Assembly (NCBI RefSeq): GCF_900168015.1
Contig: NZ_FUYR01000001.1
Span: 1,672,943 to 1,736,942 of the forward strand
Source of the DNA: Daejeonella lutea
GTDB lineage: Bacteria; Bacteroidota; Bacteroidia; Sphingobacteriales; Sphingobacteriaceae
DNA: 64,000 nucleotides
Direction: 5' to 3'
The notes beneath the pieces are model-generated. The model did no database searches. It worked only from the letters and a program-made list of their open reading frames with translations, and had not been told where the DNA came from. Below, piece by piece: positions 28,146 to 43,302 of the stretch; within the stretch, counting starts at the first letter, position 1, and each line of letters begins with the position of its first letter. The translations under genes were made by a program, and so were the position numbers.

Positions 28146-29657
28146 ATGATAAAATCCTCACATTTCACTAAAGTTATCCTGGCTATTACAGTAGCTTTTA
28201 TCTTCCCTTTTTCACTCTCTGCGCAGAAAAATGATGCAGCAATTATCCCCGGAGATTTTGCTGACCCTTCTGTTATAAAAGTTGGGAAGACATACTTCGC
28301 TGTCGGAACTTCATCAGAATGGGCTCCCCACTTTCCCATTTTTAAATCCAGGGATCTCAAAAACTGGAAACAGTCAGGCTATGTTTTTGACAAGACGCCC
28401 GAATGGTCATCGTCTTCTTTCTGGGCACCGGAATATTATAAAATAAAAGACACCTATTATATATACTATACCGCAAGGCGAAAATCCGATAACACCTCCT
28501 ACATCGGAGTTGCGACATCTAAATACCCAGATAAAGGCTTTATCGACCACGGTTTGCTTGTCACCTATGGAAAAGAAGCAATTGATGCATTCATCTATAA
28601 AGATGAGGGTCAGCTATACATCACCTTTAAAGCGTATGGGCTGGACAAACGCCCGATTGAAATTCTCGCCAGCAAACTCTCGTCTGATGGGTTAAGGCTA
28701 GAGGGCGAGCCCTTCACGCTGTTAAAGGATGAAAAAGGTTTGGGAATGGAGGGCCAAAGCATTCTAAAACACGGAGACTATTACTACATCTTCTATTCAG
28801 GGGGTAATTGTTGCGGTGTAAAATGCAGCTACAATGCAACTGTTGTCCGCTCGAAAGCATTTACTGGTCCTTATGAAGCGCACCCAAATAATCCTATACT
28901 TTCTGAAAATGACAACTGGAAATGTATGGGTCATGGAACCTTTGTCAAGAGCCCGGATAATAATGATGTTTATCTACACCATGCCTATAACAAACAAAGC
29001 ACCGTTTTTACCGGTCGCCAGGGCTTGCTATCCGAACTGAACTGGGGCAAGGATTGGCCGACCTTTAACGCGCAGCAAAGTGCTGGCAACCCGATAACCG
29101 AGGTAAATAGTTCTTTCGATTCAAAGAAGCCCGATACTTACTGGCAATGGGATTTCCGTAATTCCAGCCCTGTAGTTAAACAGCAAAATGGGCGACTCTA
29201 TTTGTCGGGAAGCTTAAAACAAGGAAATGAGTCTGGAATTGTCCTTACAATCCGACCTGTGTCAGATAATTTCACAATGACAACCACGATTAGTAACAAC
29301 AATACAGCACTTAAAGGATTGTCCTACTACGGCGATGCCAATGCTTCGCTTGGGATAGGTGTCGAAAATAACCGGGTGATAGTCTGGTTGGTTAAAGGGA
29401 ATAAGTTTGCGGAATTGGTTTCCCAAACTATTGTTGCTGAATCACCAGTCCAGCTCCGGCTTCAGCTCGGTCCCGATAGGATCTGTAAGTTTTTCTACAA
29501 ACAGATAAACAGCGACTGGAAAGAGCTTCGAGCTCATAACCCTGTAACTGCCGCCGCTTTACCACAATGGGACAGGAGTCCGAGAGCAGGCTTGCATTTC
29601 AAAGGCCTTCCCGACCAGGATGGGCAATTCGATAATTTCAATATTACGTATCAATAA
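28146..29657 (+). CDS. Secreted glycoside hydrolase, GH43
   Basis: 503 residues with a signal peptide (SHFTKVILAITVAFIFPFSL). The GH43 five-bladed propeller starts at GDFADPSVIKVGKTYFAVGT, with Asp40 as the likely base; a transition-state-stabilising Asp is in the EAIDAFIYKDEG segment (about 146) and the acid Glu is in GMEGQS (about 202). The C-terminal third (about 330-503) is a beta-sandwich of the GH43-associated kind (RAGLHFKGLPDQDGQFDNFN). Family members act on arabinan or xylan; the exact specificity cannot be decided. A single gene, 128 bases from the acyltransferase stretch. Confidence 0.9.
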   Translation: MIKSSHFTKVILAITVAFIFPFSLSAQKNDAAIIPGDFADPSVIKVGKTYFAVGTSSEWAPHFPIFKSRDLKNWKQSGYVFDKTPEWSSSSFWAPEYYKIKDTYYIYYTARRKSDNTSYIGVATSKYPDKGFIDHGLLVTYGKEAIDAFIYKDEGQLYITFKAYGLDKRPIEILASKLSSDGLRLEGEPFTLLKDEKGLGMEGQSILKHGDYYYIFYSGGNCCGVKCSYNATVVRSKAFTGPYEAHPNNPILSENDNWKCMGHGTFVKSPDNNDVYLHHAYNKQSTVFTGRQGLLSELNWGKDWPTFNAQQSAGNPITEVNSSFDSKKPDTYWQWDFRNSSPVVKQQNGRLYLSGSLKQGNESGIVLTIRPVSDNFTMTTTISNNNTALKGLSYYGDANASLGIGVENNRVIVWLVKGNKFAELVSQTIVAESPVQLRLQLGPDRICKFFYKQINSDWKELRAHNPVTAAALPQWDRSPRAGLHFKGLPDQDGQFDNFNITYQ

Positions 29658-29759
29658 GTATTAAATATAATTATCAGACCAGGATGACGCCGCTCTATCT
29701 GCTTATTACTTCATTTCCAATTTACTGTTCAATATATTCCGTTCCACAAACTTGATCCC

Positions 29760-31043
29760 ATGACAAAGCAGCCCGCTCCAGCTAATCCAGTACGCCGCAT
29801 TCTGGCCGCCAGCCTTATCGGCACAACAATAGAATTCTTCGATTTTTATATTTATGCCACCGCTGCTGTGCTGGTATTTCCTAAGCTGTTTTTTTCCGCC
29901 TCAGACCCGGCACTTGCTACTCTCGAGTCTCTCGCGACTTTTGCACTTGCCTTTTTTGCCCGTCCTTTAGGTGCTGCACTTTTTGGCCACTTCGGCGATA
30001 GAATGGGACGGAAAGCAACGTTAGTTGCTGCACTCATGACAATGGGACCATCCACAGTAGCTATCGGTCTCTTACCCGGCTACGATTCTATCGGAATTGC
30101 TGCTCCAATTTTACTAGCGATCTTTCGCTTTGGCCAAGGATTAGGCCTGGGAGGAGAATGGGGCGGTGCTGTACTACTGGCTACTGAAAATGCCCCACCG
30201 AATAAAAAAGCCTGGTATGGGATGTTTCCTCAGTTAGGAGCGCCAATCGGTTTCCTCCTTTCTACCGGCACATTTTACATTCTAACTCAAACAATGAATG
30301 ATGCCGACTTTATCAGCTATGGCTGGCGCATACCCTTTATCGCCAGTGCGCTGCTTGTATTTGTCGGAATGTATGTTAGGCTCAAAATATCGGAAACTCC
30401 AGATTTCGTAAAGGTCCTCGACAACAATCAGCGCTCAAAGATGCCAGTTGCTGACGTATTTATTAAACATACCAAGGCAATTACCCTCGGGACGCTTGCT
30501 ACAATCACAACTTTCCTGCTTTTTTATCTGATGACCGTGTTCACCCTTAGTTGGGGAACATCGGCATTACATTACCCGAAGAGTGATTTTCTCATCCTGC
30601 AAATGATATCCATGTTGTTCTTCGCACTTGGCATTCCATTGTCCGCCGTACTGGCTGATAAATATGGCCGTAACCGGATGTTAGTAACCGCCACAATTGG
30701 TATCATGGTATTCGGACTGGTATTTGCCGCTCTATTTAAGGCTGAGAATCTGCCAATGACTGGCATATTCCTCTCGCTCGGCATGTTTCTTATGGGTTTG
30801 ACATATGGGCCTATCGGTACCGCATTGGCAGGAATATTCCCGGCACGCGTACGCTATACAGGCGCTTCATTGGCCTTTACACTTGCAGGAATCTTAGGGG
30901 CATCACTCACACCCTACTTAGCTACAACACTCGCGCAGAATTACGGATTGACATATGTGGGCTACTATCTGACCGTCGCCGCCGGGCTCACCCTGCTCGC
31001 GTTGCTGGGTTCTCGCGGCATGATGAAAGACCCGGCAGAATAA
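29760..31043 (+). CDS. MFS transporter, MHS (metabolite:H+ symporter) family
   Basis: 427 residues with twelve predicted helices. Supporting motifs: IGTTIEFFDFYIYATAAVL at the start, FGHFGDRMGRKATLVAAL (loop 2-3 motif), GLGLGGEWGGAVLLATENAP and ALADKYGRNRMLV-like repeat (LADKYGRNRML). These are typical of the MHS group that imports carboxylates, shikimate or betaine-like solutes. Sugar-acid import would fit the uronate locus downstream, but that is an inference. It lies about 100 bases after the GH43 gene and 1.7 kb before the PL lyase pair. Confidence 0.9.
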   Translation: MTKQPAPANPVRRILAASLIGTTIEFFDFYIYATAAVLVFPKLFFSASDPALATLESLATFALAFFARPLGAALFGHFGDRMGRKATLVAALMTMGPSTVAIGLLPGYDSIGIAAPILLAIFRFGQGLGLGGEWGGAVLLATENAPPNKKAWYGMFPQLGAPIGFLLSTGTFYILTQTMNDADFISYGWRIPFIASALLVFVGMYVRLKISETPDFVKVLDNNQRSKMPVADVFIKHTKAITLGTLATITTFLLFYLMTVFTLSWGTSALHYPKSDFLILQMISMLFFALGIPLSAVLADKYGRNRMLVTATIGIMVFGLVFAALFKAENLPMTGIFLSLGMFLMGLTYGPIGTALAGIFPARVRYTGASLAFTLAGILGASLTPYLATTLAQNYGLTYVGYYLTVAAGLTLLALLGSRGMMKDPAE

Positions 31044-31084
31044 TTATTCTGATTTTAAGGTTCGAAAGATCCGTGATTAATAGT

Positions 31085-31321
31085 TCAGGAAAAAGAGATC
31101 TGGGGATTGATCTGATCGATCTTTTCACCAATCGCTTTAATTAGCCAATGGTCCAGATTGTCTTCATTACGTTGCATCCATTCGCTACCACATTTGAAAA
31201 GTACTGCTTCAGCTCCGTCCTGAAACCGTACATTCCAAACCCTTAAGCTTTTTAACGTAGATGCTATCAACTGCAAAACATATTTGGTTCCGTGTCCGGA
31301 TAAAACGATTTGATGTGTCAT
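31085..31321 (-). CDS. Small hypothetical protein
   Basis: 78 residues from an ATG at 31321 (MTHQIVLSGHGTKYVLQLIA). An upstream extension to 31444 exists (41 more residues) but is hydrophobic and unlike the rest. The protein is mixed alpha/beta, with VWNVRFQDGAEAVLFKCGSEW in the centre, and resembles no family I can name. It is in the opposite strand to its neighbours, between the MFS gene and the eroded sensor/SusD region. I am moderately sure that it is a real gene. Confidence 0.45.
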   Translation of the reverse strand: MTHQIVLSGHGTKYVLQLIASTLKSLRVWNVRFQDGAEAVLFKCGSEWMQRNEDNLDHWLIKAIGEKIDQINPQISFS

Positions 31322-31526
31322 ATTAACCATTATGAGGTGGAAAAGATGCCTTAGGTAAAAAAATTTAAACGCAGATTCATAAGGAACATTGTTCAATAGC
31401 AACTTTATGACAATTTGAATTAAGGATTTTAACCTGGAAAGCATAAAAATAATAACTCCTTCCCCTCAGGATTGATTCTGATCTATTTATATATTTATAG
31501 GTTGTAAAAAATCCGAAACAAGCTTA

Positions 31527-31731
31527 ATGGGCATTCGAAGTAATCTGATCCTTGTTGTCACAATTATACTAGTGTGGCTAGCTCCCCCTGTGTTTGCGCA
31601 AATCCCTTTTCCTCTCGACAGCTTAAGGAAAGAACATATTTTCCATAACGCAGAAATTGAATTTCTGGAAGACACATCTTCATCACTTTCATTTGCTGAG
31701 ATATTGAAACGCAACGGCGACTTTATCCTAA
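31527..31731 (+). pseudogene. Truncated N-terminus of a 7TM-DISM-type sensor gene
   Basis: The frame starting at ATG 31527 encodes a signal-peptide-like segment (VVTIILVWLAPPVFAQ) followed by NAEIEFLEDTSSSLSFAEIL, which resembles the beginning of the extracytoplasmic 7TMR-DISMED2 domain in Bacteroidota sensor proteins. After roughly 68 codons this homology ends and the sequence passes into a SusD-like tail in a different frame; the frame itself ends by 31757. The rest of the sensor gene is absent. I read this as the left stump of a deletion. The family match is short, so the origin is moderately certain. Confidence 0.5.
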
Positions 31732-32036
31732 ATCAACGCATTTGTAAGCGCCAATAACCTAAACATGCGGGAAGAGATTCGCAGGGAGCGCACCGTAGAA
31801 CTTGCGCTTGAAGGCTTCAGGTACGACGATCTGATCAGATGGAAAACTGCCGAAACAGTGCAGCCAAAAGCCTTGCTTGGTGCAAAGTTTATAGCCGCCG
31901 ACTGGCCAAACACGCCTGCAAACAGCTTACTTCTCAATGCTGATGGTGTTCTGGTTGTTGAAGAAGCTTCTAAACGGGCATTCCGCACAAACCGCTGAGT
32001 CATGGCAATGTTGTACAAAATCCTAACTGGCAATAA
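31732..32036 (+). pseudogene. SusD/RagB C-terminal remnant with frameshift
   Basis: In one frame, 31732-31997 encodes INAFVSANNLNMREEIRRER, followed by VELALEGFRYDDLIRWKTAE and KRAF, the conserved C-terminal SusD helix region. After a frame change at about 31982-32003 the typical SusD terminus GNVVQNPNWQ and a TAA stop (32034-32036) follow in another frame, so bases are missing between KRAF and GNVV. The N-terminal ~80% of SusD and the whole SusC partner are absent. SusD proteins are outer-membrane glycan-binding lipoproteins paired with SusC transporters. The remnant is followed 12 bases later by an intact lipoprotein gene, consistent with a former PUL operon. Confidence 0.85.
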
Positions 32037-32047
32037 TTACAGGTAAT

Positions 32048-32557
32048 ATGAAATCATTAACATACATAACACTCGCTTCTATCATGCTTATGCACTTCAC
32101 ATCGTGCGAAGACAATGATTATGAAGCAGGAACACCGGAGTTCGACAATCACTACTATGCCGCCTATCTTCCGAATAATAATACCAAGGTTACAGTGACA
32201 AAGAATCAGACCGCGCTTGTTAAATTCCCGGTTCAGTTCTATTCGGCCTTTGTCAGGTCCTATGATGCTGTAGCCGTTTACGAAGTTTCCACAACGGGAA
32301 TAACTGCCCCGGCGGTGTTAGGTAAGGACTTTAATATCGTCGACAAGAACGGTGCGGTAATCGCCTCTACTGACGGGAAATACAAACTGGTATTCCCTAA
32401 AGCGGCGAAAGCTACCGATACGATTTATGTGAAATTACTGAACAACCCGGCAACGGGAACCCGTTCGGTTGACATAAATATCATCTATAATATTCTTCCG
32501 GATTACCGTGTAGATATGTTTTCTACTGCTAATAAACGTCCGCTGGAGATCAGGTAA
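32048..32557 (+). CDS. PUL-associated lipoprotein (SusE/F position)
   Basis: 169 residues with a lipoprotein signal: hydrophobic stretch then LMHFTSC (Cys20). The mature part is beta-rich (YYAAYLPNNNTKVTVTKNQT, KYKLVFPKAAKATDTIYVKL) and looks like the Ig- or Calx-beta-like N-domains of PUL surface lipoproteins such as DUF1735/BT_3987 types, although I cannot name the family with certainty. It starts 12 bases after the SusD remnant, the position of SusE/F-like surface glycan-binding proteins. It is intact and is followed by a hairpin terminator-like structure, so it may still be expressed from a downstream or read-through promoter. Confidence 0.6.
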   Translation: MKSLTYITLASIMLMHFTSCEDNDYEAGTPEFDNHYYAAYLPNNNTKVTVTKNQTALVKFPVQFYSAFVRSYDAVAVYEVSTTGITAPAVLGKDFNIVDKNGAVIASTDGKYKLVFPKAAKATDTIYVKLLNNPATGTRSVDINIIYNILPDYRVDMFSTANKRPLEIR

Positions 32558-32560
32558 ACC

Positions 32561-32587
32561 GATGGCCCTGCACAATGTGGGGCCATC
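32561..32587 (+). terminator. Terminator-like hairpin after the PUL lipoprotein
   Basis: A perfect 8-bp stem (GATGGCCC / GGGCCATC) encloses a TG bulge and a short CAC-AAT-GTG inner hairpin, followed by CTTTC. It begins 3 bases after the lipoprotein stop and may end or attenuate transcription before the lyase genes. The T-run is short, so it is only a probable intrinsic terminator. Confidence 0.55.
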
Positions 32588-32706
32588 CTTTCAATGCCCG
32601 CTTTGCTAAAAGATCTGATACTCCCGAAAGGTGTAATTAAAGGTAAGCGCTTTATACACAGCAGCTCCGGCATTTTGCTATTTTAGCGTAAACAACCAAT
32701 TATCAA

Positions 32707-33897
32707 ATGAAGCGATTTATCACCTGCCTCTCATTCACCCTGCTGTATTCAGTCTCCTTAAGTGCTCAGGAAGTCTTCCTGATCGACCCCCAGGTTTTGC
32801 AGAAGAACAAAAAGGCCTACGAGAAAAAGGATCCTGCAATCGTGAAGAAAGTGGATCAGATCATTCGCCGTGCTGATGAAATGCTGAATGTTAAACCGCT
32901 TTCGGTAATGGATAAGAATTTTACTCCGTCGAGCGGAACGAAGCACGATTACATGAGCATGGGACCTTACTGGTGGCCGGATCCGGCAAAGCCTGACGGA
33001 CTGCCATACATCCGCAAGGACGGGCAAAGAAATCCTGAAATCAATAGAATAACCGACCGGGATTATTTGGGTCAGCTGGAAACACGCTGTAAGTATCTAT
33101 CCCTGGCTTATTACTTTACAGGACGACCCCAATACGCAGAGAAAGCCAATGAACTAATACGGGTATGGTTTCTGAACCCCGAAACCAAGATGAACCCCAA
33201 CCTTAATTTCGGCCAGGCTATACCCGGACTGAATGAAGGCAGAGGGATTGGTATTATCGAATCGAGGCTCTTAGCGTACCTGGTGGATTGGATAGACCTT
33301 CTTTCAGCAGATGTGTCCTTTGCCAAAAACAAACCAGGTTTGCAAGACTGGTTTGCTCAATACCTGAGCTGGTTGCTTGAAAGCAAGAATGGTGTGGATG
33401 AATCAAAGGCTGAAAATAATCATGGTACCTTCTACGAGTTACAGGTAGCCTCTTTTGCTGCGTTTACAAATAACAAAACCCAGATCGGCAAGACTTTTGA
33501 CAAGCTTAAAGACAGGATCAAACTGCAGATCCACGAAGACGGCAAGCAGCCTCTTGAACTAGAACGTACCAATGCCTATTCGTACAGCGCTATGAATCTC
33601 AGTGGCTGGTATAGCCTCGCGTTACTTGGCGAGAAGTTCAACTATGATCTGTGGAAACTTGGCGGTACACCACCAGCACTTCATAGAGCAATTGAATGGC
33701 TCATTCCATTTACAGTAGGCATTGAAAAACGAACCTACGAACAGATCAATCCTTTTAATAAGGAAGATGTTTACTCCTTGCTCAAAATAGCCCACCATAA
33801 ATACAAAGAAGAGAGTTTTAACAACCTTGCCAATTCCTATAAACCTTCTACTGCTACAGCAATCGACGATCTGCTTTACTCCTTGCCCGGAAAATGA
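32707..33897 (+). CDS. Alginate-lyase-superfamily polysaccharide lyase (PL38-like), copy 1
   Basis: 396 residues with a signal peptide (RFITCLSFTLLYSVSLSAQ). The alginate_lyase (PF05426-like) domain is marked by HDYMSMGPYWWPDPAKPDGL, FGQAIPGLNEGRGIGIIESR, the catalytic-region NNHGTFYELQVASF (about 237-250) and LERTNAYSYSAMNL. The (alpha/alpha) toroid enzymes of this group cleave glucuronan or alginate by beta-elimination; PL38 is my best guess. The exported protein is adjacent to a second copy (8 bases apart) and to GH88, which would hydrolyse the unsaturated uronic acid products. Confidence 0.85.
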   Translation: MKRFITCLSFTLLYSVSLSAQEVFLIDPQVLQKNKKAYEKKDPAIVKKVDQIIRRADEMLNVKPLSVMDKNFTPSSGTKHDYMSMGPYWWPDPAKPDGLPYIRKDGQRNPEINRITDRDYLGQLETRCKYLSLAYYFTGRPQYAEKANELIRVWFLNPETKMNPNLNFGQAIPGLNEGRGIGIIESRLLAYLVDWIDLLSADVSFAKNKPGLQDWFAQYLSWLLESKNGVDESKAENNHGTFYELQVASFAAFTNNKTQIGKTFDKLKDRIKLQIHEDGKQPLELERTNAYSYSAMNLSGWYSLALLGEKFNYDLWKLGGTPPALHRAIEWLIPFTVGIEKRTYEQINPFNKEDVYSLLKIAHHKYKEESFNNLANSYKPSTATAIDDLLYSLPGK

Positions 33898-33905
33898 ACC
33901 TCTGA

Positions 33906-35087
33906 ATGAAAATGAACAGAACTGTTTCTTTTACTTCGCTCATCGTATTGCTGCTGATTTCGGCTGGGTGTACTGTGGGTAAAAGAGATCGTTCGAGTTG
34001 GGTGCAGAATGCTGAAACTGTACTAAAAGACCAGGTGCTCAAGCAGGCCCAATGGGCGCTCGGGCAAAAGCCCCTTACGGTTACTGCTGCATTTTCCGCA
34101 CGCAGTGCCGGCGGGAAGCATGATTTCTATTCCGAAGGCGATTACTGGTGGCCAAATCCGGCTAATCCTTCGGGACCCTACATTCAGCGCGACGGCTTAA
34201 GCAACCCGGATAACTTTTCTGATCACCGACTGGCTATGATCCGTTTCGGGACCATCATCGGAAGCCTGGCCTCAGCCTACAAGATCACCGGTGATGAAAA
34301 GTATGCTCGTCACGCCGTGGTTCATCTGAAAGCCTGGTTCCTCGACACAGATACGCGAATGAATCCAAACCTGAATTACGCGCAGGCCATTAAAGGCGTA
34401 ACAACAGGCAGAGGGGTGGGTATTATCGATACCGTCCATTTGATGGAGGTGGCACAGGGTGCTCTCGTACTAAGATCTGCAATCGACAAAACTGTTTATT
34501 CCGCAATACAGCATTGGTTTTCCGAGTACATTGTTTGGCTTACCACCAGCAAGAATGGCCTGGATGAGAAGCAGGCAAAGAATAATCATGCCACCTGCTG
34601 GGTAATGCAGGTAGCCTCATTCGCTAAGTTCACAGCCAACGAGCAGGTTATGGCAGATTGCCGCGAACGGTATAAAACAGTGCTCCTGCCAAACCAGATG
34701 GCCGCCGATGGTAGTTTCCCGCTTGAACTCGCCAGGACAAAACCATACGGTTATTCAATATTCAATCTCGATGCGATGGCTGCTATCTGTCAGATACTAT
34801 CCGTAGATTCTGATAAGCTATGGACGTATGAGACGACGGACGGACGCTCCATTAAAAAAGGCATTGAATACCTGTACCCCTACCTGAAAAATAAGGCGGC
34901 CTGGCCCTTCAAACAGGATGTCATGTACTGGAATTCCTGGCCGGTCGCCCAGCCGGCCTTACTATTTGGTGCCAGGGCCTTTGCAAATGCAGACTGGTTT
35001 AATACCTGGAAAAATCTCGACCATAATCCCACAGAAGCTGAAGTGGTGCGCAATATGCCTATTAGAAATCCCCTGATCTGGTTTTAA
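33906..35087 (+). CDS. Alginate-lyase-superfamily polysaccharide lyase (PL38-like), copy 2
   Basis: 393 residues, probably a lipoprotein (SLIVLLLISAGC, Cys at about 22). It repeats the order seen in copy 1: HDFYSEGDYWWPNPANPSGP, YAQAIKGVTTGRGVGIIDTV, NNHATCWVMQVASF and LARTKPYGYSIFNL. The two copies are clearly paralogous but diverged. In the NNH segment, copy 1 has G-T-F-Y and copy 2 has A-T-C-W, so substrate-subsite or catalytic fine structure may differ, although the ELxRTxxYxYS motif with its Tyr is conserved in both. The gene starts 8 bases after copy 1. Confidence 0.85.
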   Translation: MKMNRTVSFTSLIVLLLISAGCTVGKRDRSSWVQNAETVLKDQVLKQAQWALGQKPLTVTAAFSARSAGGKHDFYSEGDYWWPNPANPSGPYIQRDGLSNPDNFSDHRLAMIRFGTIIGSLASAYKITGDEKYARHAVVHLKAWFLDTDTRMNPNLNYAQAIKGVTTGRGVGIIDTVHLMEVAQGALVLRSAIDKTVYSAIQHWFSEYIVWLTTSKNGLDEKQAKNNHATCWVMQVASFAKFTANEQVMADCRERYKTVLLPNQMAADGSFPLELARTKPYGYSIFNLDAMAAICQILSVDSDKLWTYETTDGRSIKKGIEYLYPYLKNKAAWPFKQDVMYWNSWPVAQPALLFGARAFANADWFNTWKNLDHNPTEAEVVRNMPIRNPLIWF

Positions 35088-35095
35088 AAATTACT

Positions 35096-36292
35096 ATGAG
35101 AAGATATCCTAAAGTTCTGATCCTTTTATTTGCCGCGGCATTCCTTTCGTCTGCCTGCTCTAAAAAACTAATCGTTTCTAAAGTTCTTGCCCATGCCGAA
35201 TCGCAAACGAAGATTTTGCTTGAGGAGACAAAGCGCACCCAGGCAGCCCAGAAGAACACTGCCCTTTTTTCGCCAAGGACGGTTGAAAACAATGAGTTGA
35301 AATTGGTTGCCTCTACCGACTGGACCAGCGGCTTTTTTGCCGGAAACTTATGGTACCTGTATGAGCTTACCGGAAAACCCGAGTGGCGTGATCATGCCAT
35401 TGAATATACCAAGCCCGTTGAGCGGGAAAAAATGAATGGCGTTACACACGACATGGGATTTAAGATCTATAACAGCTTTGGCCACCAATACCGTCTAACC
35501 AAAGATGAACATGCGAAAGAAGTGATCATACAAGGTGCAAAAACACTGTCTACCCGGTTTAATCCAAAAGTAGGTGCTATACGCTCATGGGATCACCACG
35601 ACTACCTGTGGAAATACCCGGTAATAATCGATAACATGCTTAACCTAGAATTATTATTTGAAGCCACCAGGCTCACAGGAGACTCGAGTTTTTACAAGAT
35701 TGCTGTATCTCACGCAAATACCACCATGAAGAACCATTACCGGGATAACAACAGTACCTGGCATGTGGTAGACTACAACACTGAAACCGGGGAAGTGGTA
35801 AAGAAGCAAACTCACCAGGGGTATAGTCACACGTCTTCCTGGGCGCGCGGCCAGGCATGGGGCCTTTACGGCTACACGATGTGCTATCGCGAAACAAAGA
35901 ATCCCATTTACCTCCGTCAGGCGGAAAAGATAGCAAGTTTTATATTCTCCCACCCATCCATGCCTGAAGACCTGGTGCCCATCTGGGATTATGATGCTGC
36001 GGTATTGCCAGGCGAGCCCCGAGACGTTTCGGCAGCAACGGTAACAGCTGCCGCACTATACGAGCTGAGTACCTACAGTGACGATAACCGAGGCGATTAT
36101 CTGGCGAAAGCTGATAAGATCATGAACAGTGTAACAACTAAATACTCTTCAAAGCCTGGAACAAATTATGGATTTATCCTCAATCATAGTACGGGTAATA
36201 AACCCGCTAAAAGCGAAATAGATGTACCAATTAACTATGCAGACTACTACTACCTGGAGGCACTGATCCGAAAACAGAAGGTCAAGTATTAG
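35096..36292 (+). CDS. Unsaturated glucuronyl hydrolase, GH88
   Basis: 398 residues with a lipoprotein-type signal (LFAAAFLSSAC). GH88 hallmarks: DWTSGFFAGNLWYLYELTG, the first Asp in THDMGFKIYNSFG (about residue 118), the second catalytic Asp in IDNMLNLELLFEA (about 178), and GYSHTSSWARGQAWGLYGY. It hydrolyses the 4,5-unsaturated uronic acid end left by lyases, through hydration of the double bond. The 8-base gap after the second lyase gene points to a single operon and to periplasmic processing of uronate oligosaccharides. Confidence 0.92.
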   Translation: MRRYPKVLILLFAAAFLSSACSKKLIVSKVLAHAESQTKILLEETKRTQAAQKNTALFSPRTVENNELKLVASTDWTSGFFAGNLWYLYELTGKPEWRDHAIEYTKPVEREKMNGVTHDMGFKIYNSFGHQYRLTKDEHAKEVIIQGAKTLSTRFNPKVGAIRSWDHHDYLWKYPVIIDNMLNLELLFEATRLTGDSSFYKIAVSHANTTMKNHYRDNNSTWHVVDYNTETGEVVKKQTHQGYSHTSSWARGQAWGLYGYTMCYRETKNPIYLRQAEKIASFIFSHPSMPEDLVPIWDYDAAVLPGEPRDVSAATVTAAALYELSTYSDDNRGDYLAKADKIMNSVTTKYSSKPGTNYGFILNHSTGNKPAKSEIDVPINYADYYYLEALIRKQKVKY

Positions 36293-36932: not shown

Positions 36933-37694
36933 CTACACGCCTGCAATCCTCCTTTTGTACTCTGCGAGGCAATCCTCCAACCTTTCCTTCGCAGTGTCAT
37001 CTCCGGGAACATTGTGTGAGGGATGGATGAAGAGCTTAACTCCCCGGTCAGCAAGTATTTCTGCAACGGTTGTTACAGTCATCCAAACACAGGTTATAAA
37101 TGCCATAGTCGAAACAGGTCCAACTTTGTCCTGATGATTTTTCAGATCAACAGATGCATCCGCGATAGGAGCACATGAATCAACAACGTGGTCAGCAATA
37201 TCAAAAATTGTTTTCCCACTTGAATGGCGTGTTTTCTTACCAACTGCTTCGGCGGCTGATCCGAACACAATAACCTTCATGCCTTTTTTCTTTGCTTCCA
37301 GCGCGACGTCGATATTTACATTATTTATTCCAGTGTGTGAAAAAAGCCACATGGTATCACGTGTGTCAAAGGTATATCCTTTCATGATCTCGACACCGTA
37401 TCCTTCAACCCGCTCAAGAAATACGAATTGATGCACGCCCATCTCACCTGTAATTCTGGTAAAAAAAGTTAATGGGAGCTCAACCATTGGGTGAAAACCT
37501 ACGAAGCCCCCTATTCTTGGATACATTTCCTCAATCGGGATAGTAGCGTGGCCGCATCCGAAGGTATGAACCCACCTTCCTGCCTCAATTGAATCCGCCA
37601 TTATTTCGGCCGCAATCCGAATATTGTCCATCTGCGTTTCTTCGATCCGGGTCATTACGTCCCTTGCATTTTTTAGCCATTGTTGTGCTAGCAT
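36933..37694 (-). CDS. SIS domain phosphosugar-binding protein (UPF0309-like)
   Basis: 253 residues of a sugar-isomerase (SIS) fold: WVHTFGCGHATIPIEEMYPR near residue 41-60, then TMWLFSHTGINNVNIDVALE and GMKVIVFGSAAE. The shape and length match UPF0309-type proteins, which are predicted to bind or isomerise phosphorylated sugars. It is the last gene of the leftward operon with an MFS carrier, ROK kinase and the GH9-deacetylase unit, so an amino-sugar phosphate or anhydro-sugar phosphate substrate is plausible. Catalytic activity cannot be assigned from sequence. Confidence 0.85.
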   Translation of the reverse strand: MLAQQWLKNARDVMTRIEETQMDNIRIAAEIMADSIEAGRWVHTFGCGHATIPIEEMYPRIGGFVGFHPMVELPLTFFTRITGEMGVHQFVFLERVEGYGVEIMKGYTFDTRDTMWLFSHTGINNVNIDVALEAKKKGMKVIVFGSAAEAVGKKTRHSSGKTIFDIADHVVDSCAPIADASVDLKNHQDKVGPVSTMAFITCVWMTVTTVAEILADRGVKLFIHPSHNVPGDDTAKERLEDCLAEYKRRIAGV

Positions 37695-37715: not shown

Positions 37716-38876
37716 TTATTTATTTGTCGTGATCTTTGTTTCCCTAAGTATGAATATTGTTAATAATAACATGGCTGCATTAAGCACATAAGTCACAAGT
37801 GTCAAATTCGATATGCCGTAAAATTGAGCGATAAGACCCATTGAATAAGTAATCAGAATATTTCCTGTAAGGGCAATCACGAGTACAAAACTGAAGGCGG
37901 TTGCTGAAAGATCCGTATATCTTTCGCCTACAAAGCCTAGCATTACTGGAAATCCTGAAGCAAGACCGGCACCTGTGAGGATCAAGCCCGTGACCGAAAC
38001 CGGAAATGAATAATTCAATCGCAGAAGTGTAGCTCCAACTAAAAGCAATGCTAATGATGCATACATCACCACCTCGGGTTTTACGCTTCGAAAAACACTT
38101 CCGACCACAAGCCGAGTAAGCGCCATACCCACTACATATAACGATAATGAATATAGAGCGGCACTCCTCGAAACATCAAGCTGCTCGATAAGGAAAGTTG
38201 TAGTCCAATTATTAATGATCGCCTCGTAACTACTTTGGCAAAACAGGAAAAATGCGATCAAAAGAATAAAATTGTCTCTAAAAAGTTTAACTCCCTGCAA
38301 CACTGGAATTCCTTGCTTTTGTTTAGGAGGGGGAAATTTGATTATTATAAAAAATACCGCAGCGAAGAGCGCTAGAAAACCTACAGAGGAAAGAATTACG
38401 CTAAATGAGTATCGCTCATTGAATGCGCCAAGAATAAATGGCATACCAAGAGCGCCTATTGCAAAAGAAACACCAAGCAGACTTAAATTGGCTGCCTTAT
38501 TCTTCATGCTTATATCAGCGACTACCCCATTAGTTGCGCCATTAATAGCTCCGCCGGCTATTCCGAACAGAAAAATAGATATTTTCAATAGGTCAATGTT
38601 GCTTGCATAAGCAATTCCCTGAAACCCACCAAACATGCAAAGACAGGAGATTACCAGGAACAACTTATAACCATATTTGTCGCACAACGGCCCGAAGATT
38701 AAGGACCCGGTAAGAATACCAAAGGGCATGATTGAGAACAACGTTCCAGCTGTCAGTTCATCTAGGCTAAATTTATCATGGAGCCCGGTCGCTACTGAAC
38801 CAAGTGTAATCAGACCAATCCCGAAAAGAAGAAGTCCAAGGCAGGCAGCAAAAAAAACTAGTCTGGCTTTATACAT
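37716..38876 (-). CDS. MFS transporter (sugar importer candidate)
   Basis: 386 residues with twelve hydrophobic helices. Typical MFS segments: GSLIFGPLCDKYGYKLFLVI in loop 2-3, FGIAGGAINGATNGVVADIS in helix 4-5 and GAGLASGFPVMLGFVGERY in the second half. Specificity is not evident, but its place between a ROK sugar kinase (5 bases upstream) and a SIS protein (21 bases downstream) supports uptake of the monosaccharide or disaccharide released by the GH9-deacetylase unit. This function is inferred from context. Confidence 0.85.
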   Translation of the reverse strand: MYKARLVFFAACLGLLLFGIGLITLGSVATGLHDKFSLDELTAGTLFSIMPFGILTGSLIFGPLCDKYGYKLFLVISCLCMFGGFQGIAYASNIDLLKISIFLFGIAGGAINGATNGVVADISMKNKAANLSLLGVSFAIGALGMPFILGAFNERYSFSVILSSVGFLALFAAVFFIIIKFPPPKQKQGIPVLQGVKLFRDNFILLIAFFLFCQSSYEAIINNWTTTFLIEQLDVSRSAALYSLSLYVVGMALTRLVVGSVFRSVKPEVVMYASLALLLVGATLLRLNYSFPVSVTGLILTGAGLASGFPVMLGFVGERYTDLSATAFSFVLVIALTGNILITYSMGLIAQFYGISNLTLVTYVLNAAMLLLTIFILRETKITTNK

Positions 38877-38881
38877 GATAT

Positions 38882-39832
38882 CTATAGCTTGTTTAGATGT
38901 TGCAAAGCCAAAAATCCAGCACCGTAAACCCCTGCATCACCTCCTAGACCTGACTTCTCAATGCTAACCTGAGTTACGGATATAGGCTGACCCCATTTAT
39001 CAGCTTCAGATTTTATTTCTGAAATCAATTGTAGTCCAGGACCAAATACTCCCCCGCCCAAAATGATCTTTTCCGGATTAAATAAACTTATCAGATTAGC
39101 AACTGCCATTCCCCAAAATTCAATACATTGCCTTATCACTTCTCTTCCAATACCATCACCGTTTTCATATGCAGAAAACACATCTGCAGCACATAACTTA
39201 TCCAGGTCTATATTGCTGAAAAATCCTGTATACTCAGTTGTCTCTTTAATCAAATTCCTGCATACTTTTGCAATTCCTTCACCGGACGCATGATATTCAA
39301 AACATCCGCATGATGTATATACTTCCTTGAAAGGACGGTCAAGTGCCATCCATCCGATTGCCCCAGCGACATCATGCGCACCTCGCAGTATTGCTCCATT
39401 TATGAGAATACCGGCGCCTATCCCTGTACCAACTGAAAGGTAAATTGCATCGCTGCAACCCTGCGCATTTCCTTTCCAATGTTCTCCCAGGATATAACAA
39501 GCACGATCACTGTCGATACTGACTGGCAAACCCCGACAAACAGTTTTTAAATCATCGAGCAGCGGATAATCATCCCACCCAATGATGTTAGGTGCCCACA
39601 CTGTTCCCGTTTTGCTCCGGCTGATCCCTGGGACACATGCTCCAACAGAACGAATTTCATTCCCTCCAGAAGCACTTAAAAACTCAGCAACAAAATCCAT
39701 GATCAGTTGTCCCACCTCCACCCCACCCTTGTTTCCAATAGTTACAGATTTCCTGCTAATCATCGCCCCCTCTTCAGTAAAAAGTGCAGCAGCTACTTTA
39801 GTTCCGCCTATATCTATTCCGAGTACTGACAT
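38882..39832 (-). CDS. ROK family sugar kinase
   Basis: 316 residues. The ATP-binding phosphate-1 motif GIDIGGTKVAAALF lies at the N-terminus; GTGIGAGILINGAILRGAHD and AGAIGWM follow, and a short Cys-rich element (TSCGCFEYHASGEG) corresponds to the zinc motif of ROK proteins with one Cys apparently missing. No N-terminal DNA-binding domain, so it is a kinase, not a repressor. It likely phosphorylates a hexose or amino sugar. It lies between the deacetylase-frame end (35 bases) and the MFS gene (5 bases) in the leftward operon. Confidence 0.9.
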   Translation of the reverse strand: MSVLGIDIGGTKVAAALFTEEGAMISRKSVTIGNKGGVEVGQLIMDFVAEFLSASGGNEIRSVGACVPGISRSKTGTVWAPNIIGWDDYPLLDDLKTVCRGLPVSIDSDRACYILGEHWKGNAQGCSDAIYLSVGTGIGAGILINGAILRGAHDVAGAIGWMALDRPFKEVYTSCGCFEYHASGEGIAKVCRNLIKETTEYTGFFSNIDLDKLCAADVFSAYENGDGIGREVIRQCIEFWGMAVANLISLFNPEKIILGGGVFGPGLQLISEIKSEADKWGQPISVTQVSIEKSGLGGDAGVYGAGFLALQHLNKL

Positions 39833-39867: not shown

Positions 39868-40587
39868 TTATTTTTTCTCCAGAAAAAGGGTTTTTAAGGG
39901 TACGAACCTATATCCCTTGAGTTTCAATTCCTTAATTAGTCCGTCGAGCAAGTTGTAAAATTTATCAGTTCTACGTGGATCTGTTCCGATGTGCACGAGG
40001 AGGATAAATCCATTTAAACCATTTGGATCAGCCTTTTCCTTGTCAAGCACCGACTGGTAAATTTCATCACTCGGCCGATAAGAAGCCCCCATTTCCGGAT
40101 ATGTATAATCAGCAATAGATCGGGTTCCGGGTGAAAAATTGATGAGTTTAAATCCCAGATTATCAGTCCACACTTTTATTGTCTTATTGTACCATTCATA
40201 GGGCGGCAAGAAATAGGGTGCATCCGATTTGCTTATACCAAACCTTGCCATTCTTTCATAGTTTTTACGAAGATCGTTTTCAAACTCGTCTCTGCTAATT
40301 AGAAGACTATCCCTTTTTACCCAATCAGCATACAATAGATGTTTATCGGAATGTGCGCCTAAATAATGGCCTTCTTTTTTTAGACTTTTAATGAGTTTAC
40401 TAAAGTTACTGTTCGCATAAAAGTTGCCAGTAAGGAAAAACGAAGCGGGAGTATGATTTTCTTTTAACGCTTTACGAATAACCTCACCACCGTCTGCAAA
40501 CTCATCGCCAGTGAAAACGATTGATATATTCTTTCTTGAAACATCGCCTCGTATTAATGCTCCATGCGAGTCGGCTATTGCTTTTTT
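39868..40587 (-). CDS. Polysaccharide deacetylase (NodB-like) domain in the -1 frame of GH9
   Basis: About 240 codons without a stop, beginning inside the end of the GH9 gene. Conserved NodB features in order: a metal/catalytic Asp region VFTGDEFADGGEV, ASFFLTGNFYAN, the metal motif HSDKH (HYLGAHSDKHLLYADW), LPPYEWYN, NFSPGTRSIADYTYPEM and GFILLVHIGTDPRRTDKF. No ATG, GTG or TTG precedes the HSDKH motif; the first is a TTG at 40335, after that motif, which would remove the active site. Therefore the domain is expressed only as an extension of GH9, or is broken. A one-base slip on A6 at 40582-40587 joins the frames. Confidence 0.8.
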   Translation of the reverse strand, partial: KKAIADSHGALIRGDVSRKNISIVFTGDEFADGGEVIRKALKENHTPASFFLTGNFYANSNFSKLIKSLKKEGHYLGAHSDKHLLYADWVKRDSLLISRDEFENDLRKNYERMARFGISKSDAPYFLPPYEWYNKTIKVWTDNLGFKLINFSPGTRSIADYTYPEMGASYRPSDEIYQSVLDKEKADPNGLNGFILLVHIGTDPRRTDKFYNLLDGLIKELKLKGYRFVPLKTLFLEKK

Positions 40588-42389
40588 CCATTGGCTCCCT
40601 CCCTGGAGTCATTCTCTTTAGCAGCAAGTAAATAAATTAAAGACGCTGTACCGTCCATAGTAGGCTCGTTTGTACTGTAATCACCAGTATCATCATGATA
40701 TACCGCAAGTCTGGACTGGAATTCAGCATATTCATCAGGATCTTTCAACTGAATGCCAATAAGGCTGCTATAAATACTGCCATAAACCGGTCCGTCAACT
40801 AAACCGCCGTCCAATGGATAATTTTTCAGGACCGTGAAAGATGAATGTGGATCCACTGGTGTATCGCCATGGGATGGCAGGCCGTACACCATACTTGTTC
40901 CCCAGGGGTTGAGTCCGAAAAGCCAATCAAAACTAGCCTGTTCCAGTTGAAGATAGGTATTGTCTCCGCTCAATTTTCTGTATAAATAACATTGAATGGC
41001 AAATGACGTTGTTAAATTATTTGAGCACCATATAAATGGTACCCCTCTATAGAATGCGTTACCTTTTGATTTCTGCCAAACCTTTTCGATTCCTTCTCTA
41101 TAATATCCAATAAGCTTAGCCCGGGTGGCTTCATCACTTTTCTTAGCCAGTTCAAAATGCCCAAAATTATGAAAGGGATAATATTGATAATGATTGGCTG
41201 TGTCAGCTCCTATCCAGGGTGTTATTTTTTCTTCGTCGCTATATTTTGACGCCTGATTCATATAAATTTCTTCCCCGGTCATCTGATAAATAGCTGCAGC
41301 GCCGAGCTCCATGTCATCTACCCAGTTTCCTTCCGCATAAATATAGGGTGATAATACTGAGGCGGTTTGTGCATTACCAGGCTTAGCAAGACCAAAATTA
41401 TAAGCGGAAATTGACCGCTTTCGGTACATATCAGCCATGAATTTATCTTTTGAATTATACAGTTGGGATGCCAGAGCAAATGCACTCGCGAATTTGCCTG
41501 CCGTTGAAGCGGTCCCCGTGGCATTATTCTTAAATTTCCCCAAACCCTGCTTTTCTCCGGTAATAAAATATACCGGACGCCCTGTTCCGCGGCCGTAACT
41601 ATAATTTACCGAATCCAGGTGGGGTAATCTATAGCCAGCATGGTCCCGATCATCTGCTATTTGATTGAACATCCAGTCTTCACGTGGATGCATTTTAAGG
41701 AGCCAGTCTAATCCCCACTTTGCTTCATCTAGAACATCTGCCGATCCATTGGCCCCGTCAAGACCATTTGAAAGGTGCTTGTCCGAAAAAACAGCAGGAA
41801 AATCTCGATAAGCTGCAAGGAGATGATAGGTTGCATTTGCAGACGTTGTTGAATATTGAAGATAGTCTGACGCGTCGTGCCAGCCTCCGGTCACATCGAT
41901 AAAAGTCTTATCAGGCATTGGCCCATAAACTGAATATCCGTCAACAGGATGGCAACTGGCTTTTAAAAAAGGGTTATAGCCACATCTTTGCTGTCGCATA
42001 TATTTCAGTGCAAAATCTGCCGATCCTGTATATACTTCCGATCCAATTGAAAACTTTGGTGAGCGTGTATCACCTACCTTTAAATAGTATGATCCAGGCG
42101 ACTTAAATTCCGAAAAATCAAGACGATAAGTTGAAGTGAACGGGCCGTATTCCCCGAAGTTTTTTCCGATCGACCTTTTTAGAACCACCCTGGAGGTGAT
42201 CGCATCAATAAGTTCAAAATTCTTTAATTTGTCGTGACTCTTGGATCCCAACACAGCAACTTTAACTGCATTTTCAGCATATCCCATTTGATTGATCCTG
42301 ATCCAACTCTTTGCGGATTGCTGTGCTACAGCACCTATGGAAAAAGCCCCTATCCACATCACCAATAATGTACTTTTAATTATATCCAT
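40575..42389 (-). CDS. Glycoside hydrolase family 9 (secreted)
   Basis: 604 residues with a signal peptide (TLLVMWIGAFSIGAVAQ). An N-terminal Ig-like domain of the CelD type (about 25-115) precedes the (alpha/alpha)6 barrel. GH9 features: GGWHDASDYLQYSTTSA (nucleophile-base Asp region, near residue 169), LDEAKWGLDWLLKMHP, and the C-terminal acid region DTGDYSTNEPTMDG with Glu in NEP. GH9 enzymes include endoglucanases and exo-glucosaminidases; pairing with a deacetylase, a ROK kinase and SIS protein makes an amino-sugar oligosaccharide substrate plausible. The stop (TAG, 40575-40577) follows one codon after the A-AAA-AAG heptamer. The gene lies opposite the DeoR regulator. Confidence 0.92.
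   Translation of the reverse strand: MDIIKSTLLVMWIGAFSIGAVAQQSAKSWIRINQMGYAENAVKVAVLGSKSHDKLKNFELIDAITSRVVLKRSIGKNFGEYGPFTSTYRLDFSEFKSPGSYYLKVGDTRSPKFSIGSEVYTGSADFALKYMRQQRCGYNPFLKASCHPVDGYSVYGPMPDKTFIDVTGGWHDASDYLQYSTTSANATYHLLAAYRDFPAVFSDKHLSNGLDGANGSADVLDEAKWGLDWLLKMHPREDWMFNQIADDRDHAGYRLPHLDSVNYSYGRGTGRPVYFITGEKQGLGKFKNNATGTASTAGKFASAFALASQLYNSKDKFMADMYRKRSISAYNFGLAKPGNAQTASVLSPYIYAEGNWVDDMELGAAAIYQMTGEEIYMNQASKYSDEEKITPWIGADTANHYQYYPFHNFGHFELAKKSDEATRAKLIGYYREGIEKVWQKSKGNAFYRGVPFIWCSNNLTTSFAIQCYLYRKLSGDNTYLQLEQASFDWLFGLNPWGTSMVYGLPSHGDTPVDPHSSFTVLKNYPLDGGLVDGPVYGSIYSSLIGIQLKDPDEYAEFQSRLAVYHDDTGDYSTNEPTMDGTASLIYLLAAKENDSREGANGKKQ
40581..40604 (-). promoter_or_regulatory. Candidate -1 frameshift site (A-AAA-AAG with AGGGAG stimulator)
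   Basis: On the minus strand, in the GH9 frame, the codons are GGA AAA AAG CAA TAG, giving the heptamer A-AAA-AAG at 40587-40581. Two overlapping AGGGAG tracts (40604-40599 and 40600-40595) lie 11 and 7 bases upstream, comparable with the element used in E. coli dnaX. A slip to -1 gives GCA ATA GCC, which enters the deacetylase frame. A weak hairpin (CTCG/CGAG) lies just downstream. Bacteroidota ribosomes often respond poorly to Shine-Dalgarno-like pairing, so the stimulator may not act as in E. coli. Confidence 0.5.
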
Positions 42390-42558: not shown

Positions 42559-43302
42559 ATGCTTCAGGAAGAAAGACATAAAATAATTTTACAGCAAATC
42601 ACCCTGCACCATAAAGTATTGTCGAATGATCTTTGTTTGCTGTTGAATGTGTCATTAGATACGGTGAGACGTGATTTAGCTGAATTAGAGAAAGATGGGA
42701 AAATTATAAAAGTGCATGGCGGAGCGCTGGCCAAAACATTTCATCAGCCATTTCAACAGCCCGCAATTTATGCCCAGGCGGAGAAGAAAAAGATCGCTGA
42801 GAAAGCGTTAAAACTGATTCATGATGGAATGAGTATTTTGACGGGGGGAGGCACAATAATGTTGGAGCTGGCAAAAATAATTCCGCCTGATCTCATTGGC
42901 ACATTCTTTACCGTTAGTCCTCTTGTTGCATTAGAAGTTGCTCAGCGTTCAAGCGTCAATGTTATCCTTTTGGCCGGACAATTATCACCAAATTCATACA
43001 TATGCACTGGTGCATCGGTTGTTAGCCAACTTTCCGAAATTCATGCAGACCTGTGCTTTTTAGGGACAAATGCCTTGTCGCTGGGCGACGGTCTTACAGA
43101 ATACGACTGGGAGACTGTTCAGGTAAAAAAGAGCCTGATAAAATCTGCAAAAAAGGTTGCGGTGATGAGTATAAGCGAAAAACTTGAAACCAATCATAAA
43201 TTGCAGGTGTGCAAAATAAATGCGTTAGACTACCTGATCACTGATTTAGACCCGGGCGATAAGAAACTTTTGACGTACTCGCAAACTTGTAAAATCATTT
43301 AA
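42559..43302 (+). CDS. DeoR-family transcriptional regulator
   Basis: 247 residues. N-terminal helix-turn-helix SNDLCLLLNVSLDTVRRDLA (about 20-40) followed by ELEKDGKIIKVHGGA, the DeoR signature. The C-terminal part is a DeoRC sugar-phosphate-sensor domain (MSILTGGGTIMLELAKIIPP; FLGTNALSLGDGLTEYD), which senses phosphorylated sugars. It is divergent from the GH9 operon, with 169 bases between the starts, so it is the likely local repressor, induced by a phosphosugar made by the ROK kinase. The effector is unknown. Confidence 0.93.
   Translation: MLQEERHKIILQQITLHHKVLSNDLCLLLNVSLDTVRRDLAELEKDGKIIKVHGGALAKTFHQPFQQPAIYAQAEKKKIAEKALKLIHDGMSILTGGGTIMLELAKIIPPDLIGTFFTVSPLVALEVAQRSSVNVILLAGQLSPNSYICTGASVVSQLSEIHADLCFLGTNALSLGDGLTEYDWETVQVKKSLIKSAKKVAVMSISEKLETNHKLQVCKINALDYLITDLDPGDKKLLTYSQTCKII

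Follow-up and report, generated by a model that had tools for sequence, protein, structure and literature searches.

The window analysed in this study is a stretch of 64,000 nucleotides from Daejeonella lutea. Its minus strand carries a glycoside hydrolase gene of family GH9 which is followed, in the -1 frame, by a predicted polysaccharide deacetylase domain of family CE4. We propose that a programmed -1 ribosomal frameshift at their junction very probably yields both a secreted GH9 enzyme and a secreted GH9-CE4 fusion. The junction is composed of the following elements:

40575..42389, minus strand: GH9 gene, frame 0, 604 amino acids (open reading frame and Pfam match)
40581..40587, minus strand: putative slippery heptamer A_AAA_AAG in the GH9 frame, read from the sequence and present at the same place and in the same frame in 77 distinct loci
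40575..40577, minus strand: frame-0 stop codon TAG, one codon (CAA) past the heptamer, read from the sequence
40595..40604, minus strand: Shine-Dalgarno (SD)-like tract AGGGAGGGAG, with its GGAGG core at 40598-40602, 10 bases 5' of the heptamer
39868..40581, minus strand: CE4-type polysaccharide deacetylase domain in the -1 frame (PF01522, Polysacc_deac_1), 237 codons after the slip plus a stop

The GH9 protein matches the PF00759 profile over its full length (positions 1-444 of 444) at residues 120-588 and CelD_N at residues 26-109, and a signal peptide (MDIIKSTLLVMWIGAFSIGAVAQ) was judged by eye at its N-terminus. The motifs DASDY and STNEPTMDGTA are present, which we take to be the DAxD motif and the C-terminal Glu region of GH9 enzymes. 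On the minus strand the gene ends with GAC TCC AGG GAG GGA GCC AAT GGA AAA AAG CAA TAG, so that A_AAA_AAG lies in frame at 40587-40581 and the stop codon at 40577-40575. Two overlapping AGGGAG tracts, at 40600-40595 and 40604-40599, are located 7 and 11 bases 5' of the heptamer. The open stretch of the -1 frame begins 31 bases ahead of the GH9 stop codon and runs to 39868; its PF01522 match and HSxxH motif predict a NodB-type deacetylase of family CE4. This frame has no ATG, GTG or TTG before the catalytic motif; its first start-type codon is a TTG at 40335, just past HSDKH. A -1 slip is predicted to give a product of 603 + 237 = 840 residues. The preliminary description of this locus, which had read the GH9 end as GGA AAA AAG CAA TAG with the two tracts upstream, a startless deacetylase frame and a fusion of about 840 residues, is accurate on all these points. 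NCBIfam assigns neither the GH9 protein nor the deacetylase to a family above cut-off, and Rfam gives no match at gathering scores between 40300 and 42700.

To place this arrangement among its relatives, the deacetylase was searched in 60 relatives (12 with a match, in part a weak one), in 399 family genomes (145 with a match at E <= 1e-20, and the loci of all 145 were taken and their junctions read), in 395 class genomes (19 with a match, 12 of these from outside the family) and in named genomes (best 80 of 495 matches used). Junctions were likewise read in the loci from the class and named searches. The open frames in the family search were mostly about 230-275 or 820-930 residues long, corresponding to offset or fused genes, with exceptions. 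A total of 255 loci with a deacetylase match was reduced to 206 by removing identical junction and deacetylase sequences. Thirteen of the 206 were set aside as their GH9 was not in line or stood in a +1 relation, namely a weak unrelated match (L011), an in-frame fusion with a broken GH9 (L249) and 11 separately encoded deacetylases. The exclusion of three broken loci (L149, L150, L158) left 190 rows, 97 in frame and 93 offset; L169 was later moved to the separate genes, being located upstream of a GH9, which gives 189 loci (96 in frame, 93 offset). The breaks in L158 (G026), L149 (G383), L150 (G356) and L249 lie inside the deacetylase or the GH9, away from the conserved junction, and these copies are possible pseudogenes or sequencing errors.

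In 96 of the 189 readable junctions GH9 and deacetylase are fused in frame, with zero stops between the GH9 match and the deacetylase; in two of these (L044, L062) the GH9 match begins late, away from the locus edge. All 93 offset junctions are offset by -1. A +1 relation to an unbroken GH9 occurs in L177 and L232, but these are separate genes with their own start. The heptamer A_AAA_AAG is found in the GH9 frame in 77 of the 93 offset loci (69 with A6, two with A7 and six with A8-A10), and the other 16, without a G-ended heptamer, have A10 in 13 cases, A9 in two and A7 in one. The presence of the heptamer defines its class; its share of the 93 is not set by that definition. The -1 offset, the heptamer, a near-immediate stop and the SD-like tract, at a single spacing, recur in 77 distinct loci, as the nucleotide comparison of homologues suggested in the preliminary description was meant to find out.

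Among 71 named rows, a set biased toward near relatives and with orders taken from NCBI names, heptamer loci span the Sphingobacteriales, Cytophagales and Chitinophagales. The heptamer is present in 17/17 rows of Pontibacter, 2/2 of Chryseolinea, 1/1 of Rufibacter, 2/2 of Arcticibacter and 1/1 of Pararcticibacter, in 5/25 of Pedobacter and in 1/4 of Chitinophaga; Daejeonella contributes two heptamer rows (L244, and L188 as L151), and both Dyadobacter rows (2/2) are in frame. The heptamer support from Chitinophagales is thin and consists of one metagenome-assembled genome (L208), one A9 row without the SD-like element (L222) and L197, from a record under the title Flavihumibacter soli but with a genome that shares the genus code of the window.

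The deacetylase half is under purifying selection, with ratios of nonsynonymous to synonymous substitution (dN/dS) of 0.05-0.31 (computable in 11 of 13 pairs), beside 0.02-0.08 for GH9 (computable in 10 of 13). From these ratios we infer that the deacetylase is translated. This bears on the possibility, considered from the start, that the junction reflects an assembly error at a homopolymer or a decaying gene. An A6 run indeed sits at the junction and the family contains the broken copies mentioned above; yet 77 distinct sequences share the same state, 93 of 93 offsets are -1 and the deacetylase dN/dS is well under 1, which contradicts a pseudogene and leaves error or decay with next to no probability. 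The preliminary description had named in-frame homologues with A7 at this site as one finding that would point to an assembly error. Such homologues do exist, literally, in P. mendelii and P. rhodius (L207, L210), but since the A6 heptamer occurs in 69 distinct sequences, they point to evolutionary switching instead.

The surroundings of the heptamer are conserved as well. In the 77 loci a frame-0 stop follows directly in 73, one codon on in three and later in one. The codon that provides the first A of the heptamer stands for eight different amino acids; its last base is A in every case, which is part of the class definition. At positions -15 to -11 the consensus GGAGG is supported by G in 73, G in 76, A in 61, G in 69 and G in 68 loci. 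Where Glu is encoded at -14 to -12, its codon is GAG in 61 of 61 cases; further upstream, these genes use GAG 760 times and GAA 978 times (760/1738). An SD-like stimulator at 6-17 nt before the motif, according to the rule of PMC4066793, is found in 75 of the 77 heptamer loci vs 370 of 2156 control anchors; the two loci without it have A9 and A10 runs. A duplex with the anti-SD core of -5 kcal/mol or better is reached by 99% of the heptamer loci, by 27% of the 15 A9/A10 loci and by 23% of 95 in-frame loci, the latter taken at a matched pseudo-anchor 22 codons past the DGTA motif. Over the 77 loci the mean duplex energy is -9.8 vs -6.1 after synonymous resampling, and 75 of the 77 are better than the mean of their own synonymous control. 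The 16S rRNA of the organism itself ends with ...TACCTCCTTTC and keeps CCTCC near its end; this 3' end (L269) reads GGAATACCTCC with an intact CCTCC core, unlike the E. coli 3' end GGATCACCTCC.

The deacetylase also differs from its separately encoded relatives in the means of export. Twelve separate deacetylases (L156, L168, L169, L173, L177, L183, L203, L215, L226, L232, L240, L247) open, by eye, with leader-like or lipoprotein-like sequences, most weakly in L169, where the order is reversed and the separate deacetylase gene lies directly upstream of the GH9 gene. By an automatic measure covering 40 residues only, 6 of 11 measured separate copies reach the hydrophobicity threshold, and none of the 77 heptamer copies or of the 13 A10 copies does. 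Since the heptamer copies are without a leader and the separate relatives mostly carry one, export of the deacetylase appears to need the fusion to GH9. The metal motif of the CE4 domain (H80, S81, H84) is invariant in 29 rows, and motif 1 is mostly FT[GA][DH][ED], the canonical CE4 form being TFDD. In L031 and L255 the fused open reading frame continues for about 230 residues past the deacetylase, suggesting an extra C-terminal domain.

In the mechanism that we propose, the ribosome would complete the GH9 catalytic domain, and the internal SD-like GGAGG would pair with the anti-SD of the 16S rRNA. The ribosome would then pause with lysyl-tRNAs on AAA and AAG. Some ribosomes would slip back by one base and read on into the CE4 deacetylase, others would stop almost at once. 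Frame 0 encodes a whole GH9 enzyme, to which slippage would add CE4. As the deacetylase is without its own start or signal peptide, a single mRNA may supply two secreted proteins, GH9 and GH9-CE4, at a set ratio. The existence of 96 relatives in which this fusion is encoded in frame supports this reading. The sequence comparisons support the frameshift interpretation of the preliminary description.

Several observations weigh against it. By itself the heptamer is frequent (45 copies in the window vs 32.9 expected), and GGAG-N(9-11)-AAAAAAG is not rare in the organism's own genome (24 occurrences vs 18 for the reversed control pattern). Occurrence of the motif was therefore dropped as evidence in itself, and it is conservation across relatives that carries the proof. 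The signal counts are not corrected for relatedness. In only nine of the 77 loci is the SD energy better than in every one of the 30 synonymous draws, so the signal could come partly from the encoded peptide. In addition, PMC8710568 reports an occluded anti-SD on the 30S subunits of Bacteroidia, which could weaken an SD-type stimulator. Downstream stem-loop or pseudoknot stimulators are frequent, though not obligatory, at bacterial -1 frameshift sites. A conserved downstream hairpin is not claimed here: when the 50 bases downstream were folded, the 77 loci showed a slight excess only, with a mean z of -0.72 vs -0.48, -0.28 and +0.07 at three control places and z below -2 in 13 of 77 vs 10, 5 and 2. 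The mean folding energy just downstream is below that of all three control places, with z-scores nearly alike. Lineage-specific hairpins are possible, as good ones are seen in single lineages, e.g., L192, L070 and L258.

Finally, ATG, GTG or TTG precedes the motif in 47 of the 77 deacetylase frames (ATG in 7). Together with the SD-like element close to the stop, this would suit re-initiation, in which ribosomes that have reached the GH9 stop would start the deacetylase separately from a non-AUG codon, with GGAGG as its ribosome-binding site. The SD core, however, ends at least 16 bases before the first deacetylase-frame codon past the heptamer, which is too far for initiation. The window copy is without such a start codon, and none is common to more than 16 of the 77, the commonest start-type positions being common to 16 loci each. 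Moreover, the product would be without the leader that separate relatives carry, and the heptamer would be left unexplained. AUU-mediated initiation beside frameshifting is named in the title of an IS911 study cited in PMC4066793. For the present locus, re-initiation is very unlikely.

Transcriptional slippage deserves somewhat more weight, although it too is improbable for the present locus. Here, RNA polymerase would add a base on the A run and normal translation would read the fusion. This fits the second class of offset loci, whose runs are long (13 exactly A10) and whose SD-like element is mostly absent (4 of 15 A9/A10 loci reach -5 kcal/mol). A9/A10 is the type of run listed for this process in PMC3711429, and an in-frame A11 locus (L100) is found beside an A10 sister (L102). 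The window and 68 further loci, on the other hand, have A6 followed by G, in one codon phase and with an SD-like element at a fixed spacing. Codon phase and SD are useless to a polymerase, and the SD is mostly absent just where the run is long. For the A6 form, the constant codon phase and the accompanying SD-like element hence favour ribosomal over transcriptional slippage, though they do not prove it. For the A9/A10 class, the mostly absent SD and the run lengths listed in PMC3711429 make transcriptional slippage the likelier mechanism.

In a tree of 190 rows labelled as in-frame, A6-A7 heptamer or long run, at least 22 changes are needed, 13 of them for the heptamer label; this tree was built with L169 still among the in-frame rows, its long branches make the details unsure, and the direction of change cannot be told. 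Pedobacter sp. Leaf194 (L217; A6, heptamer) stands beside P. mendelii and P. rhodius (L207 and L210; A7, in frame), one base apart. Likewise, L100 (A11, in frame) adjoins L102 (A10, offset). The in-frame A11 copies of L160 and L100 beside offset relatives may stem from switching by a single base or from misread homopolymers in those assemblies. Exactly A10 with a -1 offset, mostly without the SD-like element, occurs in 13 rows of one genus code, g17 (L089, L094, L095, L098, L099, L101, L102, L106, L113, L120, L125, L126 and L157), which probably represent a switch from ribosomal to transcriptional slippage. We lean, with some reserve, to the broader view of a lineage-wide recoding switch that spans several orders of Bacteroidota. 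The secreted GH9-CE4 pair would exist as an SD-stimulated -1 ribosomal frameshift, as A9/A10 transcriptional slippage, as an in-frame fusion or as separate genes with leaders of their own, and these states would be interconverted by small indels. In the SD form, elongating ribosomes with an occluded anti-SD would still use mRNA-rRNA pairing for the -1 frameshift, and the dose of deacetylase per GH9 would be an evolved trait.

Frameshifting by -1 is known in kind from dnaX, IS elements and archaeal fucA. Similar to the junction described here, E. coli dnaX combines A_AAA_AAG with an upstream SD-like stimulator (PMC3711429); in dnaX, however, the frameshift gives a shorter product with the help of a downstream hairpin, whereas here it would lengthen the product, a secreted enzyme, and a conserved hairpin was not found among the 77 loci. 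With stimulators present, A_AA.A_AA.G ranks among the three heptamers that work most efficiently in E. coli (PMC4066793). OrfAB of IS911 and the IS3 family is likewise a longer fusion made by slippage on an A-rich heptamer with an SD-like stimulator (in part PMC4066793), but it is the transposase of a mobile element and not a chromosomal carbohydrate enzyme. The alpha-L-fucosidase fucA of Saccharolobus solfataricus is a glycosidase expressed via -1 frameshifting on A-AAA-AAT (PMC8037382); in this archaeal case the slip is needed for the sole functional enzyme, whereas here frame 0 already encodes a whole GH9 and the slip would add a second catalytic domain. Within the Bacteroidia, prfB shows SD-dependent recoding despite the occluded anti-SD, and its +1 frameshift is reported in all Sphingobacteriales analysed in PMC8710568, yet it is autoregulatory and uses a CUU UGA site, unlike the -1 site with two products proposed here. 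Families with both frameshifted and fused members are also described for magnesium chelatase and cyclic-nucleotide phosphodiesterase (PMC3711429); these are other genes, and GH9-CE4 adds a third state, the A9/A10 runs. A Pyrococcus chitinase split by a frameshift is described in PMC3575233. Among the matches listed in open PMC, judged by title and start of the abstract, none reports frameshifting for a GH9-deacetylase pair. Neither the main text of PMC3711429 nor the part of PMC5009743 examined mentions a deacetylase or glycoside hydrolase.

The candidate described here joins two secreted carbohydrate enzymes, extends over three orders and comes with natural controls in the form of in-frame, long-run and separate-gene relatives. 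To our knowledge, experiments have established -1 frameshifting for few ordinary chromosomal genes of bacteria. If the reading is true, one gene can give two secreted products in many Bacteroidota. It makes testable how an internal SD is read by ribosomes with a reportedly occluded anti-SD, and for what reason a cell would attach the deacetylase to only a share of its GH9. The deacetylase half may also be misannotated as a partial gene or pseudogene in many genomes.

The function of the fusion can be approached from its structure and its neighbours. A predicted structure of the in-frame homologue L212 (mean pLDDT 71, pTM 0.63, 216 residues below 50) matches GH9 structures, with 3x17 as the best, and CE4 structures. 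An exo-beta-D-glucosaminidase activity of the GH9 half was considered, since fragments of deacetylated chitin or glycan would be a fitting substrate for CE4 plus GH9 and since an HGSNAT-like gene and nagA adjoin the locus in L186. This assignment is not established, since 5dgq and 6gdt, used for the glucosaminidase comparison, are distant matches of 14-15% identity and endoglucanases rank nearer. The genes around the GH9-deacetylase locus in the window are:

38882..39832, minus strand: ROK-family sugar kinase gene, downstream of the deacetylase after a 35-base gap (context)
37716..38876, minus strand: MFS transporter gene (context)
36933..37694, minus strand: SIS-domain sugar isomerase-like gene (context)
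42559..43302, plus strand: divergent DeoR-family regulator gene (context)

The scan of six proteins at 36.9-43.3 kb shows no transposase. The gene order of the window recurs in Daejeonella sp. JGW-45 (by starts of open reading frames) and in Chryseolinea (by the same starts, with ROK and SIS confirmed by Pfam), and other GH9-deacetylase loci have other neighbours. In Arcticibacter pallidicorallinus (L186:3716-6008) an HGSNAT/DUF5009 gene and nagA, the latter above cut-off, come next after the GH9-deacetylase, which points to amino-sugar use. The ROK, MFS, SIS and DeoR neighbours together with the HGSNAT-like gene and nagA in Arcticibacter make an amino-sugar glycan a plausible substrate, probably an N-acetylated amino-sugar oligosaccharide that would be deacetylated and cut by the same protein. 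Elsewhere in the window, at 28146-36292, a run of plus-strand genes resembles, by eye, GH43, alginate lyase-like and GH88-like carbohydrate enzymes.

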